DNA from: Hydrogenobacter thermophilus TK-6
GTDB taxonomy: Bacteria; Aquificota; Aquificia; Aquificales; Aquificaceae
Length of the DNA: 64,000 nucleotides
Assembly: GCF_000010785.1 (NCBI RefSeq)
Contig: NC_013799.1
Span: 1,054,001 to 1,118,000 of the forward strand
Reading direction: 5' to 3'
In this document: positions 45,212-53,286 of the stretch, piece after piece
Layout of the letters: every line of letters begins with the position of its first letter
Numbering within the stretch: position 1 is the stretch's first letter
Made by a program: the position numbers and the translations under genes
Notes under the pieces: generated by a model
Seen by the model: only the letters and a program-made list of their open reading frames with translations
Database searches by the model: none
What the model was told of the DNA's origin: nothing

Positions 45212-45668
45212 AGCGTGTTTAAAAAATCCCAAAGCGTTGATTAACAACACTTTGCCCGCCCGCCCATACTGACAGCGAGCTAACCCTGTTTGTTCCTTCC
45301 AGAGGCTCTGACACTCTCTCTGACTCACAGGCTTCCCTTTATGCGTCTTCTTTATAGCTTCTCAAATAACTCTCTTCCTCTAATAGCTTAAAGGTTTCTT
45401 GGAGCTCTTTTGTGATGGTGTTGAAGGTGTGTAAGGACTTTGGGTTATTACTCTCCAGCAGTCTATTGTAAGCGTATCTTACTGCTGAAGATTGGACTCT
45501 CATAATGTCAAGGAGTTTCTTTTTGTCTTTTTTATCAAGTATTAGCTTGCATTGAAGGGTTAGCATGCGGAGTATTGTAAAACTAAACTTACTGTGCGGA
45601 AAGCTCTTGGAGGCGTGTTAGCTTTCAAGCTGTTGATATACAAGAATTTAAGGATTTTTAAACAGGCT
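45212..45668. mobile_element. Decayed insertion sequence with TnpB fragment, left boundary of the PQQ segment
   Basis: The left end AGCGTGTTTAAAAAATCC and the right end, read inward, AGCCTGTTTAAAAATCC form an imperfect inverted repeat. A transposase fragment lies inside. The element ends 10 bases before the first pqqA promoter. The same end sequence bounds the remnant at 52974-53286. The exact borders are judged by eye. Confidence 0.6.
45339..45566 (-). pseudogene. N-terminal fragment of IS605 OrfB/TnpB-type protein
   Basis: The 75 residues start MLTLQCKLILDKKDKKKLLD and continue with VQSSAVRYAYNRLLE, the standard N-terminus of TnpB-like transposon proteins of about 350-400 residues. The frame stops early and no RuvC domain follows, so it is a broken remnant. 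Confidence 0.75.
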
Positions 45669-45678
45669 CCCAAAGAAC

Positions 45679-45707
45679 TTGACATAAAAATTCCAAGTCG
45701 TTATAAT
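45679..45707 (+). promoter_or_regulatory. Consensus sigma-70 promoter P1 upstream of pqqA
   Basis: TTGACA (45679-45684), a 17-base spacer and TATAAT (45702-45707) match the consensus exactly and point to pqqA, about 118 bases downstream of the -10. It begins 10 bases after the insertion sequence end. Confidence 0.85.
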
Positions 45708-45824: not shown

Positions 45825-45908
45825 ATGAGGAGAGAGTGGCGCAAACCCACCCTCAAGAAGGTAAGCGTTGGCTCAGAGTACAGCGCTTACTCTATGGTCA
45901 AAGTATAA
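45825..45908 (+). CDS. pqqA: PqqA, PQQ precursor peptide
   Basis: The 27-residue peptide MRREWRKPTLKKVSVG continues with SEYSAYSMVKV. The E-x3-Y pair (Glu18, Tyr22) that PqqE crosslinks is present as E-Y-S-A-Y, with a second Tyr at position 19. The AAAGGAGGTGAT ribosome site (45809-45820) is a full anti-Shine-Dalgarno match. It precedes pqqC, pqqE and pqqB, which makes the call firm. The N-terminal half is more basic than in proteobacterial PqqA. Confidence 0.92.
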   Translation: MRREWRKPTLKKVSVGSEYSAYSMVKV

Positions 45909-45923
45909 GTATCTTTCTTCTAT

Positions 45924-45952
45924 CCCGCATGTCCAAAAGAGGGGCATGCGGG
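45924..45952 (+). terminator. Hairpin between pqqA and pqqC (attenuator or stabiliser)
   Basis: CCCGCATG (45924-45931) pairs perfectly with CATGCGGG (45945-45952) around a 13-base loop. Only CTTGTT follows, so it may be a weak terminator or an RNA stability stem that lets the peptide gene be expressed above the enzyme genes. Confidence 0.55.
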
Positions 45953-45977
45953 CTTGTTAAGCTTAAGGAGGTGTGCT

Positions 45978-46673
45978 GTGTCTTCAAGTGATACTTTTCA
46001 AGATTTTGTAGAGGTTCTGAAGCTTGAAGGATATAAAAGGTACCATATCCATCATCCTTTTCACAGATTGATGGTAGAGGGCAAACTAACGCCAGGGCAG
46101 ATAAGGGCATGGGTGGTAAACAGGTTTTATTACCAAAGGATCTTGCCCATGAAGGATGCTGCCATCATATCCAACTGCCCCTTTCCAGAAGTAAGACGCA
46201 TATGGATAAAGAGAATACTCAACCACGATAACTATGGTATAGAGATGTGGATAAAGCTCGGTGAAGCGGTAGGTCTTAGCAGAAGTGACTTATTGGAAGG
46301 TGCCGTATTACCGGGAGTAAAACTTGCCTGTGATGCGTATCTGGATTTCTGTAAAAACAGATCGTGGCTTGAAGGAATAGCTTCTTCTCTTACAACACTT
46401 GTAGCTCCCAATGCACACATGGAAAGACTTGAACACATGAGAAAGCATTATGAGTGGATAAAACCAAATGGTTTTGAGTACTTTGAGTGGAGACTTAAAG
46501 AGGGACCAGAGGATAGTCATATGGCTCTCAATATACTTAAAGAATACATAAAGACAGAGGATGAAAAGGAAAGATGCATAGAGGCTCTCATTTTTAAAAC
46601 AGCCGTACTTTGGAACATGCTAGATGCTCTATACATGGAGTACGTAATTAATGGGAGAAGGGATTATGAATGA
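45978..46673 (+). CDS. pqqC: PqqC1, pyrroloquinoline-quinone synthase (first copy)
   Basis: The protein is 231 residues from the GTG at 45978, which has AAGGAGGTG 4 bases upstream; an earlier in-frame start is less likely. PqqC closes the ring and oxidises AHQQ to PQQ without a cofactor. Visible are YHIHHP, WVVNRFYYQ, LNHDNYGIEMW, APNAH and FEYFEWRL. By alignment with Klebsiella PqqC the residues matching H24, R50, Q54, H84, H154 (here His147), Y175, R179 and K214 are kept, while the E147 position is Thr140. Bases 46040-46267 are almost identical to pqqC2. It overlaps pqqE by 8 bases. Confidence 0.93.
   Translation: MSSSDTFQDFVEVLKLEGYKRYHIHHPFHRLMVEGKLTPGQIRAWVVNRFYYQRILPMKDAAIISNCPFPEVRRIWIKRILNHDNYGIEMWIKLGEAVGLSRSDLLEGAVLPGVKLACDAYLDFCKNRSWLEGIASSLTTLVAPNAHMERLEHMRKHYEWIKPNGFEYFEWRLKEGPEDSHMALNILKEYIKTEDEKERCIEALIFKTAVLWNMLDALYMEYVINGRRDYE
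46040..46267 (+). repeat. Gene-conversion tract, copy 1 (in pqqC1)
   Basis: These 228 bases match 47825-48052 with only two differences (A/G in the GTAGAG/GTGGAG triplet region and G/A in CCAGGGC/CCAGGAC). Sequence on both sides diverges sharply. The tract covers YHIHHP through GEAVG of PqqC. Confidence 0.92.
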
Positions 46674-47754
46674 GATAAAAGAGCCTGAAGTATTGGTAGC
46701 TGAGCTGACATATAGATGCAATATGCACTGTTGGTACTGTTACAATCCACAGGATCTCAACGAATACGCCCCTCAAAAAGAACTTACCACAGATGAATGG
46801 AGAAAAGTCATTAGAGAAGCTGCAGAACTTGGTATAATTCACATTCACATAACAGGTGGGGAACCTACAATAAGACAGGATTTACCTAATATAGTACAAG
46901 AAGCTAAAAATTGTGGGCTGTATGTTAATCTTATAACAAATATAACTCTGTACGATAAGAAATATTGGGAAGAACTTGTCAAAAAGGGAGTTGATCATGT
47001 ACAAGTTAGCTTTCAGGCACACACAAAAGATTTGAATGATCTAATTGGGGAAGTAAAGACTTATGAAAAAAAGTTAAAAATATTATCATGGCTTAAAGAA
47101 ACAGGGGTATTTTTAACTATAAATATTGTCCTTCATCGATGGAATATAGATTACATAGAGGAAGTCATCCAATTTGTTTATAATCTTGGAATACCAAGGT
47201 TTGAGATAGCCATGCTCCAATTTGGTGGATGGGATTGGAAGAATAGGCTTTCGCTTATACCGAGCAGGGAGAGTGTTGAAAGAGCTTATAGGATAGCCCA
47301 GAAGTATAAAGAAAAGTTTATGGGAGAAATGAACATAACTATGGTTGCTCTTGATATATATGAAGGCAGGCCAAAACCTTGTACTTATGGCTGGGGAAAC
47401 AAGTACATGGTAATAAATCCCATTGGAGAGGTGCTTCCATGCCATGGAGCAAAGGTTATAAAAACCTTAACCTTTGAGAATATACGAGATAAAAGCCTAT
47501 ATGAAATATGGCATAATTCAGAATCCTTTAATGCTTTTAGAGGTTTCGCATGGATGAAGGAACCCTGCAAGAGTTGTCCAGAGAAAGAAAAAGATTTTGG
47601 TGGTTGTAGATGTTTTGCATATCTATTAACAGGAATGGCAGATGCTACAGATCCAAGCTGTGAATTATCACCCCACAGGTACTTGGTGGATAAGCTTATA
47701 CAAGAAGCAAAAGAGCGCTATATGTCACCAGTAAAAAGAGGTATTATAAAATGA
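46666..47754 (+). CDS. pqqE: PqqE, radical SAM enzyme crosslinking PqqA Glu and Tyr
   Basis: The protein is 362 residues from ATG 46666. The N-terminal ELTYRCNMHCWYCYNP holds the SAM cluster C-x3-C-x2-C; ITGGEPTIR follows. The C-terminal SPASM region has CTYGW, LPCHGAK, CKSCPE, GGCRCF and the last Cys in DPSCELSPH. PqqE forms the C-C bond between Glu and Tyr of PqqA and needs the chaperone PqqD. It lies between the two pqqC genes with 8- and 4-base overlaps. AT content rises in this gene compared with flanking housekeeping genes. Confidence 0.94.
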   Translation: MNEIKEPEVLVAELTYRCNMHCWYCYNPQDLNEYAPQKELTTDEWRKVIREAAELGIIHIHITGGEPTIRQDLPNIVQEAKNCGLYVNLITNITLYDKKYWEELVKKGVDHVQVSFQAHTKDLNDLIGEVKTYEKKLKILSWLKETGVFLTINIVLHRWNIDYIEEVIQFVYNLGIPRFEIAMLQFGGWDWKNRLSLIPSRESVERAYRIAQKYKEKFMGEMNITMVALDIYEGRPKPCTYGWGNKYMVINPIGEVLPCHGAKVIKTLTFENIRDKSLYEIWHNSESFNAFRGFAWMKEPCKSCPEKEKDFGGCRCFAYLLTGMADATDPSCELSPHRYLVDKLIQEAKERYMSPVKRGIIK

Positions 47755-48470
47755 TTGAGTTAGGAAGCTCTCTTTTACCCTTCGAGGAGTTTATAAACAC
47801 CTTGAAAGATTTTGGTAAGGATAAGTACCATATCCATCATCCTTTTCACAGATTGATGGTGGAGGGCAAACTAACGCCAGGACAGATAAGGGCATGGGTG
47901 GTAAACAGGTTTTATTACCAAAGGATCTTGCCCATGAAGGATGCTGCCATCATATCCAACTGCCCCTTTCCAGAAGTAAGACGCATATGGATAAAGAGAA
48001 TACTCAACCACGATAACTATGGTATAGAGATGTGGATAAAGCTCGGTGAAGCAGTTGGACTAAATAGAGAGCAGATTGTGGAGGGAAATGTACTACCAGC
48101 GGTAAGGTTTGCCGTAGATACTTACCTTAACTTGTGTAAACATAGAAGCTGGATATATGGAGTTGCAACCACGCTTACTGAACTTTTTGCTCCTCAAGCT
48201 ATAGAGGAAAGGATAGTAGCCCTGAAAGATAAATATCCTTGGATTAAGCCAGAAGGCTTTGAGTATTTTGAGTGGAGATTGTCGCAAAAAGGAATAAGTG
48301 AAGATTTCTCAGGTACAATTAACATATTGAAAAGTCATGTTAAAAGCCCGAAAGATCAAATGGAGTGTATAGAAGCACTCTCTTTTAAGCTTGATCTTCT
48401 ATGGTCTTTACTTGATGCAGTTTATTATGAATACATTTTGAAAAATGACGGAAAAACGCCTTACGATTAA
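47751..48470 (+). CDS. pqqC: PqqC2, second PQQ synthase-like protein
   Basis: The 239-residue paralogue overlaps pqqE by ATGA. Residues from KYHIHHP through GEAVG are identical to pqqC1 at protein level. After this the two differ at about half of positions (GVATTLTELFAPQAIEERI against GIASSLTTLVAPNAHMERL). The Klebsiella H154 position is Ile151 here, while the E147 equivalent is kept (Glu144). R157, Y175, R179 and K214 equivalents are present. Loss of the conserved His suggests it may not complete the full oxidation alone. A heterodimer with PqqC1 is possible. Confidence 0.9.
   Translation: MIELGSSLLPFEEFINTLKDFGKDKYHIHHPFHRLMVEGKLTPGQIRAWVVNRFYYQRILPMKDAAIISNCPFPEVRRIWIKRILNHDNYGIEMWIKLGEAVGLNREQIVEGNVLPAVRFAVDTYLNLCKHRSWIYGVATTLTELFAPQAIEERIVALKDKYPWIKPEGFEYFEWRLSQKGISEDFSGTINILKSHVKSPKDQMECIEALSFKLDLLWSLLDAVYYEYILKNDGKTPYD
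47825..48052 (+). repeat. Gene-conversion tract, copy 2 (in pqqC2)
   Basis: This is the partner of 46040-46267, 226 of 228 bases identical, offset 1785 bases. Flanking sequence belongs to a diverged paralogue. Confidence 0.92.
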
Positions 48471-48491: not shown

Positions 48492-49385
48492 ATGGAAGTT
48501 CTGTTTCTTGGAACCGCTGGGGGTGGTGGTCTTCCTCAATGGAACTGTAACTGTCCATACTGTAACAAAGCAAGAAGGGGAAGCATTCCAAAAAGGGAAG
48601 AGTGCTGTGTTGCACTGTCGGTGGATGGAAACAGTTGGATCCTTGTAGATATGCCTCCAGCTGCGGGTTCGCTGATCACAAGATATGAGGTACTTGCTCC
48701 TGCCCATGTAAGAGAGACTCCAATCGTATCTCTGTTCTTAACACATACAGATATAAATCATATGCTCGGCATGTTCACCTTTAGAGGCCCAACTACACAT
48801 ACAGATGCATATCTTACACTTTACTCAACAGAAGCTACAGAAAGGCTTCTGAGAGATTACTTTAAAGCTCACAGCATAATAAAAGTAAAATGGCACACTT
48901 TGGAGCTAAATACATGGAATGACATAGTGGATGTTCGGGGAAAAAGATTAGGCTTACAGGTATTTCCTCTCCCCATACCTGGTAAACCGCCTACCTATCA
49001 CTGGCACGAAGAAGAGGGTACATCTGTGGCACTTTTCATAAGATCCGACAAAGGAAAAAGCTTACTCTATGCTACCGTTGTAAGAACTGTAACAGAGGAG
49101 CTTAGAAAACTTATGGATGAAAGTGATTGCGTTATATTTGATGGGACCTTCTGGGAAGAAGAGGAGTTACTTAAGTATGATCCTAAAGGAAAAAGATCAA
49201 AGGAAATAGGACATATAACTGTGAAGGAAAGCCTTGACATCTTAAAAAGCTGCAAAGCAAAATATAAAATTTATACGCACATAAATAACACGAATCCCAT
49301 TAACGATCCCACTTCCCAGGAGTATATGAGTATTTTGAGTGCGGGTATTATTGTTGCTTATGACGGTATGGAACTTTCTATTTAG
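48492..49385 (+). CDS. pqqB: PqqB, metallo-beta-lactamase-fold PQQ synthesis protein
   Basis: The 297-residue protein has FLGTAGGGGLPQWNCNC with the structural zinc cysteines, LTHTDINHMLGM at the metal-binding loop, FDGTFWEEEEL, and the C-terminal HINNTNPINDP. PqqB has been implicated in hydroxylation of the PqqA-derived tyrosine. AGGAGG precedes the ATG. Confidence 0.95.
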   Translation: MEVLFLGTAGGGGLPQWNCNCPYCNKARRGSIPKREECCVALSVDGNSWILVDMPPAAGSLITRYEVLAPAHVRETPIVSLFLTHTDINHMLGMFTFRGPTTHTDAYLTLYSTEATERLLRDYFKAHSIIKVKWHTLELNTWNDIVDVRGKRLGLQVFPLPIPGKPPTYHWHEEEGTSVALFIRSDKGKSLLYATVVRTVTEELRKLMDESDCVIFDGTFWEEEELLKYDPKGKRSKEIGHITVKESLDILKSCKAKYKIYTHINNTNPINDPTSQEYMSILSAGIIVAYDGMELSI

Positions 49386-49390
49386 TTATT

Positions 49391-50569
49391 ATGAGGAAAA
49401 GCACTGCACTTTTCTTCGTAAGTTTATCTCTTTACCAAGCAAGTAACTGGTTACAAAATACTACCCTAAACTTTTATGTATATTCAAAGGCTGGATCTAC
49501 TTTAAGCGTGGGTATTGTACAGTTTTTACAGTACTTGCCACTTCTATTTTTACCTCTTTTCGGAGGTATACTTATAGACAAATTTGACAAATACAGGATG
49601 CTTTTATTTACCCAATTTACCTTAATGATTTTATCCTTCCTGCTTTACTCAGTTGCAAAGGATGATATCAATAGTACGCTGCTCAATGTATTTTGTGTAG
49701 TTGTGCCCATGGGTATTTTAAAGACCCTTGATATACCCCTAAGACAGACTGTTATGGCACACCTTGTAAGCACGGATAAGCTCAGAAATGCTACATCCTT
49801 TTACTCTACAATAGTTAATTTCTCAAGATTTATAGGTCCTTTCCTTTTTGGTATAACTGTGTCTATTTTTAGTGTAAGGTCTGGCTTCTTAATATCCGCA
49901 TTGCTTCTTATTCCCAATGTGTTTCTTCTGAGCCTCTTAAAAGAACATATAAAAAGTGGTGGTAAAACCCCCACTTCGGGTAATGTTTTTAGCGCTATAA
50001 GTTTTCTATTACAAAGGAAAGATGTGAGGAATATCTTTGTCTTTGTATTCACAGTGGGTATATTCGGATGGTTCTTCTATGTGCTATTGCCAGAATACAT
50101 TTACAAAATTTTAAATTTGCCTCCATCCGCTTATGGCTATTTAACTTCTCTGTCAGGTGTTGGTTCTGTACTTGGCTCTCTCTTACCACTGGCACTAAAA
50201 AATGTGTATGCATACACTCTTATGAAATTGGGGATACTTTTATACGCTTTTGGAACATCCCTGTGGTTTGCATCCCTTTACTTTTACCCTTTATTGGGCT
50301 TAGGTATATTCTTAAATGGCTTTGGCTTGTCTCTATTTTATGCGTGCGCAAATGCTCAAGTACAGATAGCTTCTCCTAGACATATAAAAGGAAGGATATT
50401 GAGCCTATACACATCCATCTTTATTGGCTCTCAACCCTTAAGTTTTATGATTGGAGCATTGATACATAGGTACTTAGGCATATGGATGACTCTTCTTTGC
50501 GTTATCCTTGTATGTATCATTCTTTTTGTTTTCATGAGGAGAAAAAGTCCAATAGGCACTCCTTTTTGA
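49391..50569 (+). CDS. MFS transporter in the PQQ operon (candidate PQQ exporter)
   Basis: The 392-residue protein has about 11-12 hydrophobic segments with the loop-2 motif GGILIDKFDKYRML, resembling EntS-like (MFS_3) efflux carriers. It begins 5 bases after pqqB. Since PQQ is made in the cytoplasm and used in the periplasm, an export role is attractive but is inference. The 3' end overlaps convergent pqqD by 38 bases. Confidence 0.85.
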   Translation: MRKSTALFFVSLSLYQASNWLQNTTLNFYVYSKAGSTLSVGIVQFLQYLPLLFLPLFGGILIDKFDKYRMLLFTQFTLMILSFLLYSVAKDDINSTLLNVFCVVVPMGILKTLDIPLRQTVMAHLVSTDKLRNATSFYSTIVNFSRFIGPFLFGITVSIFSVRSGFLISALLLIPNVFLLSLLKEHIKSGGKTPTSGNVFSAISFLLQRKDVRNIFVFVFTVGIFGWFFYVLLPEYIYKILNLPPSAYGYLTSLSGVGSVLGSLLPLALKNVYAYTLMKLGILLYAFGTSLWFASLYFYPLLGLGIFLNGFGLSLFYACANAQVQIASPRHIKGRILSLYTSIFIGSQPLSFMIGALIHRYLGIWMTLLCVILVCIILFVFMRRKSPIGTPF

Positions 50570-50807
50570 GTTCCATAAGGAGCTGTAGAGTATCCTCCTC
50601 AATGATTTTGGGATCACCCGTATAAACACTTTTTAATTCCTCAATAATCTCGCCGAGCTTTTTTGTTCCATCGCACCTTCTGAGTATGTCCCAAGACACA
50701 TCGTCTAATTCTATGTAGCCTTCGGGTATAAGAAGTAGCTTTCTGTTTGCTGTCTCTCGTAGCACTACACCCTTTTTCAAAATTGGTATCTTTTCATACT
50801 CTATCAT
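50532..50807 (-). CDS. pqqD: PqqD, PqqA-binding peptide chaperone
   Basis: The 91-residue protein fits the PqqD/RRE fold: [46 protein letters not shown] and a C-terminal helix. PqqD binds PqqA and presents it to PqqE. It is not with the other pqq genes: it lies on the opposite strand and its start overlaps the rpmI stop by ATGA, so it is read from the ribosomal protein transcript. Confidence 0.9.
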
Positions 50808-52973: not shown

Positions 52974-53286
52974 AGCCTGTCTAAAAAATCCCAAATGTTT
53001 GATTTTGAACGCTCATAAACACACCACGGCAAAAAGGTAAAACAAAAGGAGCTCCACAAGAACCATAAACTGGGACTTTGGTTTTGATAAGCAGTGCAGA
53101 GATTATTATGTAGTCTTCATACACTTTAGGTCTTCCTCTTTTGGTGTTCTGGCTTTTGCTTATGCTCTTGCATATTTCCTTGCTTTTGGCTAAAATGAGT
53201 TTTATCAGTTGTTTGTTTTTCTTCTTTCTCATTCTTCTTTTTTCTACCCTTTTTCCCTCAATGTGTCAAGATTTTCTAAACAGGCT
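52974..53286. mobile_element. Decayed insertion sequence, right boundary of the PQQ segment
   Basis: The left end AGCCTGTCTAAAAAATC and the right end read inward AGCCTGTTTAGAAAATC are near-identical inverted repeats. The element is only 313 bases and holds a short transposase remnant. The ends match those of the remnant at 45212-45668. Confidence 0.6.
52981..53232 (-). pseudogene. Transposase N-terminal remnant
   Basis: The 83-residue frame starts with a basic helix and has KRGRPKVYEDYIIISALLI, typical of the start of DDE transposases. It runs into the element end without a catalytic domain. Broken. Confidence 0.55.

Follow-up and report, generated by a model that had tools for sequence, protein, structure and literature searches.

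Recurrent gene conversion limited to one block of the paired pqqC genes of Hydrogenobacter

The PQQ operon of Hydrogenobacter thermophilus TK-6 contains two diverged pqqC genes that share a nearly identical internal block, and the same block has been homogenised separately in this organism and in a sister species, with its flanks following gene orthology (recurrent partial concerted evolution). Our explanation, to which we assign a probability of about 0.94, is that two paralogues that arose before the species split exchange one block of ~190-230 bp by gene conversion, so that the block is homogenised within each species and the flanks diverge. PqqC catalyses the last step in the synthesis of PQQ, a vitamin-like cofactor.

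The window (the whole stretch of 64,000 nucleotides that was analysed) contains a pqq cluster whose features are listed in Table 1. Both pqqC genes exceed the 240-bit cut-off for the PqqC equivalog family TIGR02111, and they lie ~1.1 kb apart in one operon. Among 136 Aquificota genomes, only two carry pqqC (this one and its congener G004), with two copies each. A match to the PQQ_2 family is found in two of the five genomes of the genus, which are the same two that have the pqq operon. In the window genome, this protein belongs to the methanol/ethanol PQQ dehydrogenase family (TIGR03075, 646.8 bits). (The gene for this PQQ-dependent alcohol dehydrogenase is in the region G000:C1:396365-396811, or L052:286-2190 on the − strand, and its product contains the motif WDYDGVN, which we take to suggest the lanthanide-dependent type.) The co-occurrence of the operon and the dehydrogenase makes it likely that this genome encodes a working PQQ pathway with a consumer enzyme.

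Table 1. Features of the pqq cluster, with positions in the window
Feature	Position	Strand	Evidence or remark
pqqA, precursor peptide MRREWRKPTLKKVSVGSEYSAYSMVKV	45825..45908	+	translation; ExxxY motif
pqqC1, PQQ synthase	45978..46673	+	TIGR02111 275.6 bits (cut-off 240); 1otw TM 0.92; GTG start, after AGGAGGTG; His154 retained
Converted tract in pqqC1 (recipient)	46040..46267	+	2/228 differences; informative sites all concerted; encodes Tyr23-His24 to ~residue 102 (Klebsiella PqqC numbering)
His154 codon in pqqC1	46416..46418	+	
pqqE, radical SAM maturase, between the two pqqC copies	46666..47754	+	TIGR02109 431.8 bits
pqqC2, PQQ synthase paralogue	47751..48470	+	TIGR02111 264.1 bits (cut-off 240); 1otw TM 0.90; His154 replaced by Ile
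Converted tract in pqqC2 (probable donor)	47825..48052	+	codons 88-102 of the copy-2 type in both copies
His154-equivalent position (Ile) in pqqC2	48201..48203	+	
pqqB	48492..49385	+	TIGR02108 248.7 bits
MFS transporter, final + strand gene of the cluster	49391..50569	+	PF05977/PF07690
pqqD, convergent with the MFS gene	50532..50807	−	TIGR03859 49.4 bits (cut-off 46)

The start of the operon has features of its own. A perfect sigma-70-like promoter (TTGACA, 17 bases, TATAAT; 45679-45707) lies 5' of pqqA and is also visible in the aligned sequence of the sister species. Between the species (L007 orthologue), pqqA has only three differences in 84 bases, all of them synonymous, and the identity runs on through the Shine-Dalgarno region, unlike in pqqE, pqqB, and the MFS gene, which are only 71-76% identical. 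At the operon's synonymous rate, the chance of such conservation is ~0.0005; an RNA element could be responsible, as could a constraint on codons that is driven by expression. Between pqqA and pqqC1 there is a GC-rich hairpin (cccgcatg...catgcggg, 45926-45960), which is absent from the list of a simple terminator scan. A corresponding hairpin is present in the sister species, although bases in it have changed. The hairpin is a possible attenuator, or a processing site that would yield an excess of pqqA.

A sequence-only reading of this DNA had proposed a recent gene conversion between the two pqqC genes, with two differences in 228 bases between 46040-46267 and 47825-48052 and clearly diverged flanks. 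Comparing the bases at the fixed offset of 1785 reproduced this count and these coordinates exactly. Both mismatches are synonymous and at third codon positions (46076, A/G, GTA/GTG for Val; and 46097, G/A, GGG/GGA for Gly). The edges of the tract are exact (46039/46040 and 46267/46268), as the nearest outer mismatches are at 46039 and 46268. Per 30 bases, identity is 0.97-1.00 within the tract and 0.47-0.63 directly outside it, and it falls to ~60% within a few bases on both sides. The divergence of the flanks was borne out as well: 3' of the tract, the paralogues differ with pS ~0.83 and pN 0.34. In a GENECONV-like permutation test, polymorphic sites were identical over a run of up to 46, as compared to at most 15 in 20,000 shuffles, and the runs of both species were matched by none of 20,000 permutations of the polymorphic sites. 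When the 64-kb window was searched for other long direct repeats, the tract pair was the sole one.

The sister genome (G004, locus L007) has the identical operon order pqqA-C1-E-C2-B. Its two pqqC genes also share this block, with a 63-codon core that differs at two synonymous sites, and the sequence of the block is unlike that of the window species. Within each genome, dS in the core is 0.055; between the genomes, pS in the core is 0.72-0.79, which is near saturation, and orthologue dS in the flanks of the tract is 1.1-1.7. As synonymous sites change freely between the species, the identity within each genome does not come from codon constraint. And as the same segment was homogenised with different sequences in the two species, these must have been independent events in each lineage. 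The informative sites change allegiance at the edges of the block. In codons 25-98, all 52 of them unite the two copies of each species; in codons 1-24 all of them group by gene, as does the large majority beyond codon 103. AU tests of topology gave the same picture: in the core, the tree that pairs the sequences by gene was rejected (delta lnL 102), and the tree that pairs the paralogues was rejected for the 54-base 5' flank (P = 0.005) and with a far smaller P value for the 3' part. The two species share the exact base of the 5' edge and differ in the 3' edge. These incongruent trees and the freedom of the block at synonymous sites support the earlier reading of a conversion tract. The word "recent" also stands, but it is incomplete, since conversion has recurred across two species. 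(The recurrence rests on two lineages, as only two of the 136 Aquificota genomes carry the pair.) Beyond that reading, our data supports a conversion that is recurrent, occurs in both species, has a direction that can be inferred in the window species, and affects a single structural segment of the protein.

Could the identity have arisen without recurrent exchange? A single old conversion, or the original duplication, might have been followed by very strong constraint on codons or RNA. At the protein level the block is indeed the best-conserved part of the family, but its synonymous sites are near saturation between the species and every informative site in it is concerted, so we consider this account extremely improbable. 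That saturation rules out constraint on codons or RNA as the explanation of the identity. A third pqqC elsewhere in the genome as the donor is also ruled out: when the block was searched against the full genome (1,743,135 bases in a single contig), these two sites were the only matches. Assembly collapse, in which reads from one copy would have been used to fill the block of the other, is very unlikely. Short-read assemblers can misplace a near-repeat of 228 bases, but the two copies of the tract differ at two sites, the genome is a single contig, and the independently assembled genome of the sister species has this architecture too, while its block differs in sequence and in the 3' edge. Furthermore, two finished genomes of H. 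thermophilus TK-6 have been described, one from clone and fosmid libraries and the other at 346x coverage (PMC3111988).

The direction of the latest event can be read from codons 88-102, which encode a loop and the end of a helix. Copy 1 of the sister species keeps a longer, outgroup-like loop (GENGG-L-E-KW). The loop is shortened in its copy 2 (SWGIEMW) and in both copies of the window species (NYGIEMW; the shared form is xxGIEMW). In codons 90-99, pqqC1 has 23 of 30 bases in common with the sister's copy 2 and 13 of 30 with its copy 1, and it also has the two-codon deletion. Both copies in the window species thus have the short loop of the copy-2 type, which identifies pqqC2 as the donor; by parsimony on the two species and outgroups, the latest event here was a non-reciprocal copying of pqqC2 into pqqC1. 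In the sister lineage, a shared patch of 22 bases in codons 9-16 is a hint of the same direction (copy 2 into copy 1), but it is short.

If the orthologue dS of the flanks (1.1-1.7) is taken as the age of the species split, then the last homogenisation in each lineage would fall within roughly the last 5% of the time since the split. If each lineage had undergone a single event at a random time, then the chance that both would be so recent is ~0.0025. This rough argument from two lineages makes repeated events in each lineage more likely than one event per lineage.

The pair itself is older than the split. A tree of the C-terminal part of the protein, which included 22 outside PqqC sequences and Klebsiella PqqC, groups the sequences by gene, as (H1,G1),(H2,G2), with 99% support for all four together and 100% for copy 2. 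(H1 and H2 are the copies of the window species and G1 and G2 are those of the sister.) The tree of the core is (H1,H2),(G1,G2). The grouping of the C-terminal parts by gene indicates a duplication that predates the split and is specific to this lineage among the sampled sequences. No similar block is present in G149 (L037/L046) and G150 (L030/L045), which also carry two pqqC genes each. Identity between their copies is flat at ~0.45-0.77, so duplicated pqqC genes do not generally behave in this way. We found no further two-copy genomes in the phylum of G149 (298 genomes) or in that of G150 (297 genomes).

Both proteins are predicted to have the seven-helix-bundle fold of PqqC. Their AlphaFold2 models have pLDDT of 95.4 (PqqC1) and 92.7 (PqqC2), and the top PDB match of both is 1otw, Klebsiella PqqC. 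On the PqqC2 model, the tract corresponds to residues 26-100 and covers helices 2-4: it begins directly after helix 1 (residues 11-25) and runs to the end of helix 4 (residues 74-101), so that its edges are at helix boundaries in this species. In the sister species, the 3' edge is inside helix 4. The tract contains Tyr23, His24, Arg50, Tyr53, Gln54, Lys60, Arg80, and His84 (Klebsiella numbering), which we take to be PqqC active-site residues, and it holds all of the N-terminal ones. The alignment used the Klebsiella PqqC sequence, which agrees with the PDB sequence. Of the 15 active-site positions compared, pqqC1 keeps 15 and pqqC2 keeps 14. The exception is His154, which is replaced by isoleucine in pqqC2 of both species. 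His154 and Arg157 are reported to move into the active site of PqqC on binding, and Tyr175 is another active-site position (PMC2294125); the PDB entry 3hml is the structure of an H154S mutant. (His154 is also missing from L045, L044, and L050, so its loss is not unique to copy 2 of Hydrogenobacter.) Other residues that are nearly invariant in the family have been lost outside the tract: Glu147 and Phe149 from copy 1, and Ala127, Glu139, Ser143, and Ser144, along with His154, from copy 2. In the divergent part of the genes, orthologues have pN of 0.11-0.14 at pS of 0.58-0.67. These low ratios in both copies imply that both are maintained, and we take both to be PqqC-type proteins under purifying selection. 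The two proteins may act as isoenzymes or pair as a heterodimer, or one may be active and the other regulatory.

We propose that ectopic homologous recombination without crossover occurs between pqqC1 and pqqC2, only in the block that is still similar enough to pair. A break or gap in one copy would be repaired from the other, perhaps through the Holliday-junction pathway, as for tuf in Salmonella (PMC5485169). A crossover between the blocks would instead delete a 1,785-base unit with pqqE, and selection would purge such products. As the block encodes helices 2-4, with active-site residues that are common to both enzymes, chimaeras would be functional, and the N-terminal and C-terminal parts could stay specialised. 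Repeated events would keep the block young and would raise its GC3. The ends of the tract would be set by the loss of homology, by selection for paralogue-specific sequence, or by both. The purely selective version of this account is that conversions occur across the whole gene and only those in helices 2-4 are kept, because this module is needed in the same form by both enzymes, for example in a hypothetical PqqC1-PqqC2 heterodimer. The position of the edges (the 5' edge just after helix 1, at one base common to the two species, and the 3' edge here where helix 4 ends) and the complementary losses of family-invariant residues outside the block would fit. We nevertheless think that it is rather unlikely, because the divergence of the flanks would by itself halt strand exchange at the same places, and because the sister's 3' edge falls within helix 4. 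More speculative still is a heteromeric PQQ synthase with PqqC1 and PqqC2 as partners. Helices 2-4 would be kept identical by selected, repeated conversion as the shared half of the active site, and the C-terminal parts would split the family-invariant residues between them (the His154 side in copy 1, the Glu147/Phe149 side in copy 2). We consider this improbable.

The block also stands out by composition. GC3 at degenerate codons is 0.51 in the converted core, as compared to 0.28-0.30 elsewhere in the same genes (z 3.5-3.9), and the maximum of the GC3 profile is inside the tract. When the remaining genes of this operon were scanned in 63-codon windows (n = 870), GC3 never exceeded 0.393. Relative to codons for conserved residues across the operon, the excess in the core is 3.9 standard deviations in the window species, as compared to 2.6 for the sister. 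This is suggestive of GC-biased conversion as the source of the block's high GC3. The argument is weaker in the sister species, because its copy 2 has a second GC3-rich patch (codons 98-126) just 3' of the tract. Alternatively, the high GC3 could reflect codon selection: conserved residues may prefer host-like codons, and the block's GC3 is near that of host genes (~0.46). We think this possible but doubtful, as equally conserved residues elsewhere in the operon or in the C-terminal part of pqqC have GC3 of just 0.24-0.34, except for 0.45 in the sister's copy 2.

More broadly, GC3 is 0.30-0.35 in pqqE, pqqB, and the MFS gene versus ~0.46 in neighbouring genes, and the low GC3 of the cluster is consistent with acquisition by transfer. 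A 40-base direct repeat with 78% identity (45212-45251 and 52974-53013) flanks the AT-rich pqq cluster, and parts of the sequence of this repeat region recur at several sites in the genome. Beside the second repeat, a short open reading frame (52981-53232, − strand) has a weak, transposase-like match to PF13737, below the cut-off. The repeats are possible remnants of insertion sequences that flank a transferred island.

The mechanism is already known, and pqqC is a new, clean, and well-resolved case. One close precedent is the conversion of domain 3 of the release factors RF1 and RF2 (prfA/prfB; Ishikawa et al., 2015, PMC4530459). As in pqqC, this is partial conversion between functionally diverged bacterial paralogues, in a module with a shared function, and by more than one independent event. 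In contrast, the direction varies between the RF1/RF2 events and the paralogues are ancient, while the pqqC genes belong to one operon, at a distance of ~1.1 kb, and conversion of the same block is seen again in a sister species. Prokaryotic concerted evolution that is long-lasting and recurrent has been described for tuf, for nuoL in Aquificales, and for others (Wang and Chen, 2018, PMC6053082). There too, paralogues within a species are closer than orthologues, including at synonymous sites, in several species, but the cases are 26 genes at full length. That text does not mention pqq, and its authors leave partial-gene cases to future work. Conversion between tufA and tufB of Salmonella (PMC5485169) is likewise a non-reciprocal transfer by break repair between two copies in one chromosome, but those genes are nearly identical throughout (12 differences) and the tracts are not bounded by divergent flanks. 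As for composition, recombining segments of bacterial genomes are enriched in GC (Lassalle et al., 2015, PMC4450053); that proposal is from genome-wide correlations, whereas in pqqC the bias would have left one island inside a gene of an AT-rich operon. A limited phrase search of the literature found no paper on duplicated pqqC.

The pqqC pair is thus a natural example of recurrent conversion that is limited to part of a gene, which is the class left open by Wang and Chen (2018). It provides one locus at which to ask whether the edges of tracts are set by the loss of homology or by selection, whether bacterial conversion is GC-biased, and why a PQQ operon retains two pqqC genes, one of them without His154. 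As the parts of pqqC have different histories, a single-gene tree of pqqC from these organisms would be misleading: in these two diverged copies, one part of each enzyme evolves jointly and the rest drifts apart.
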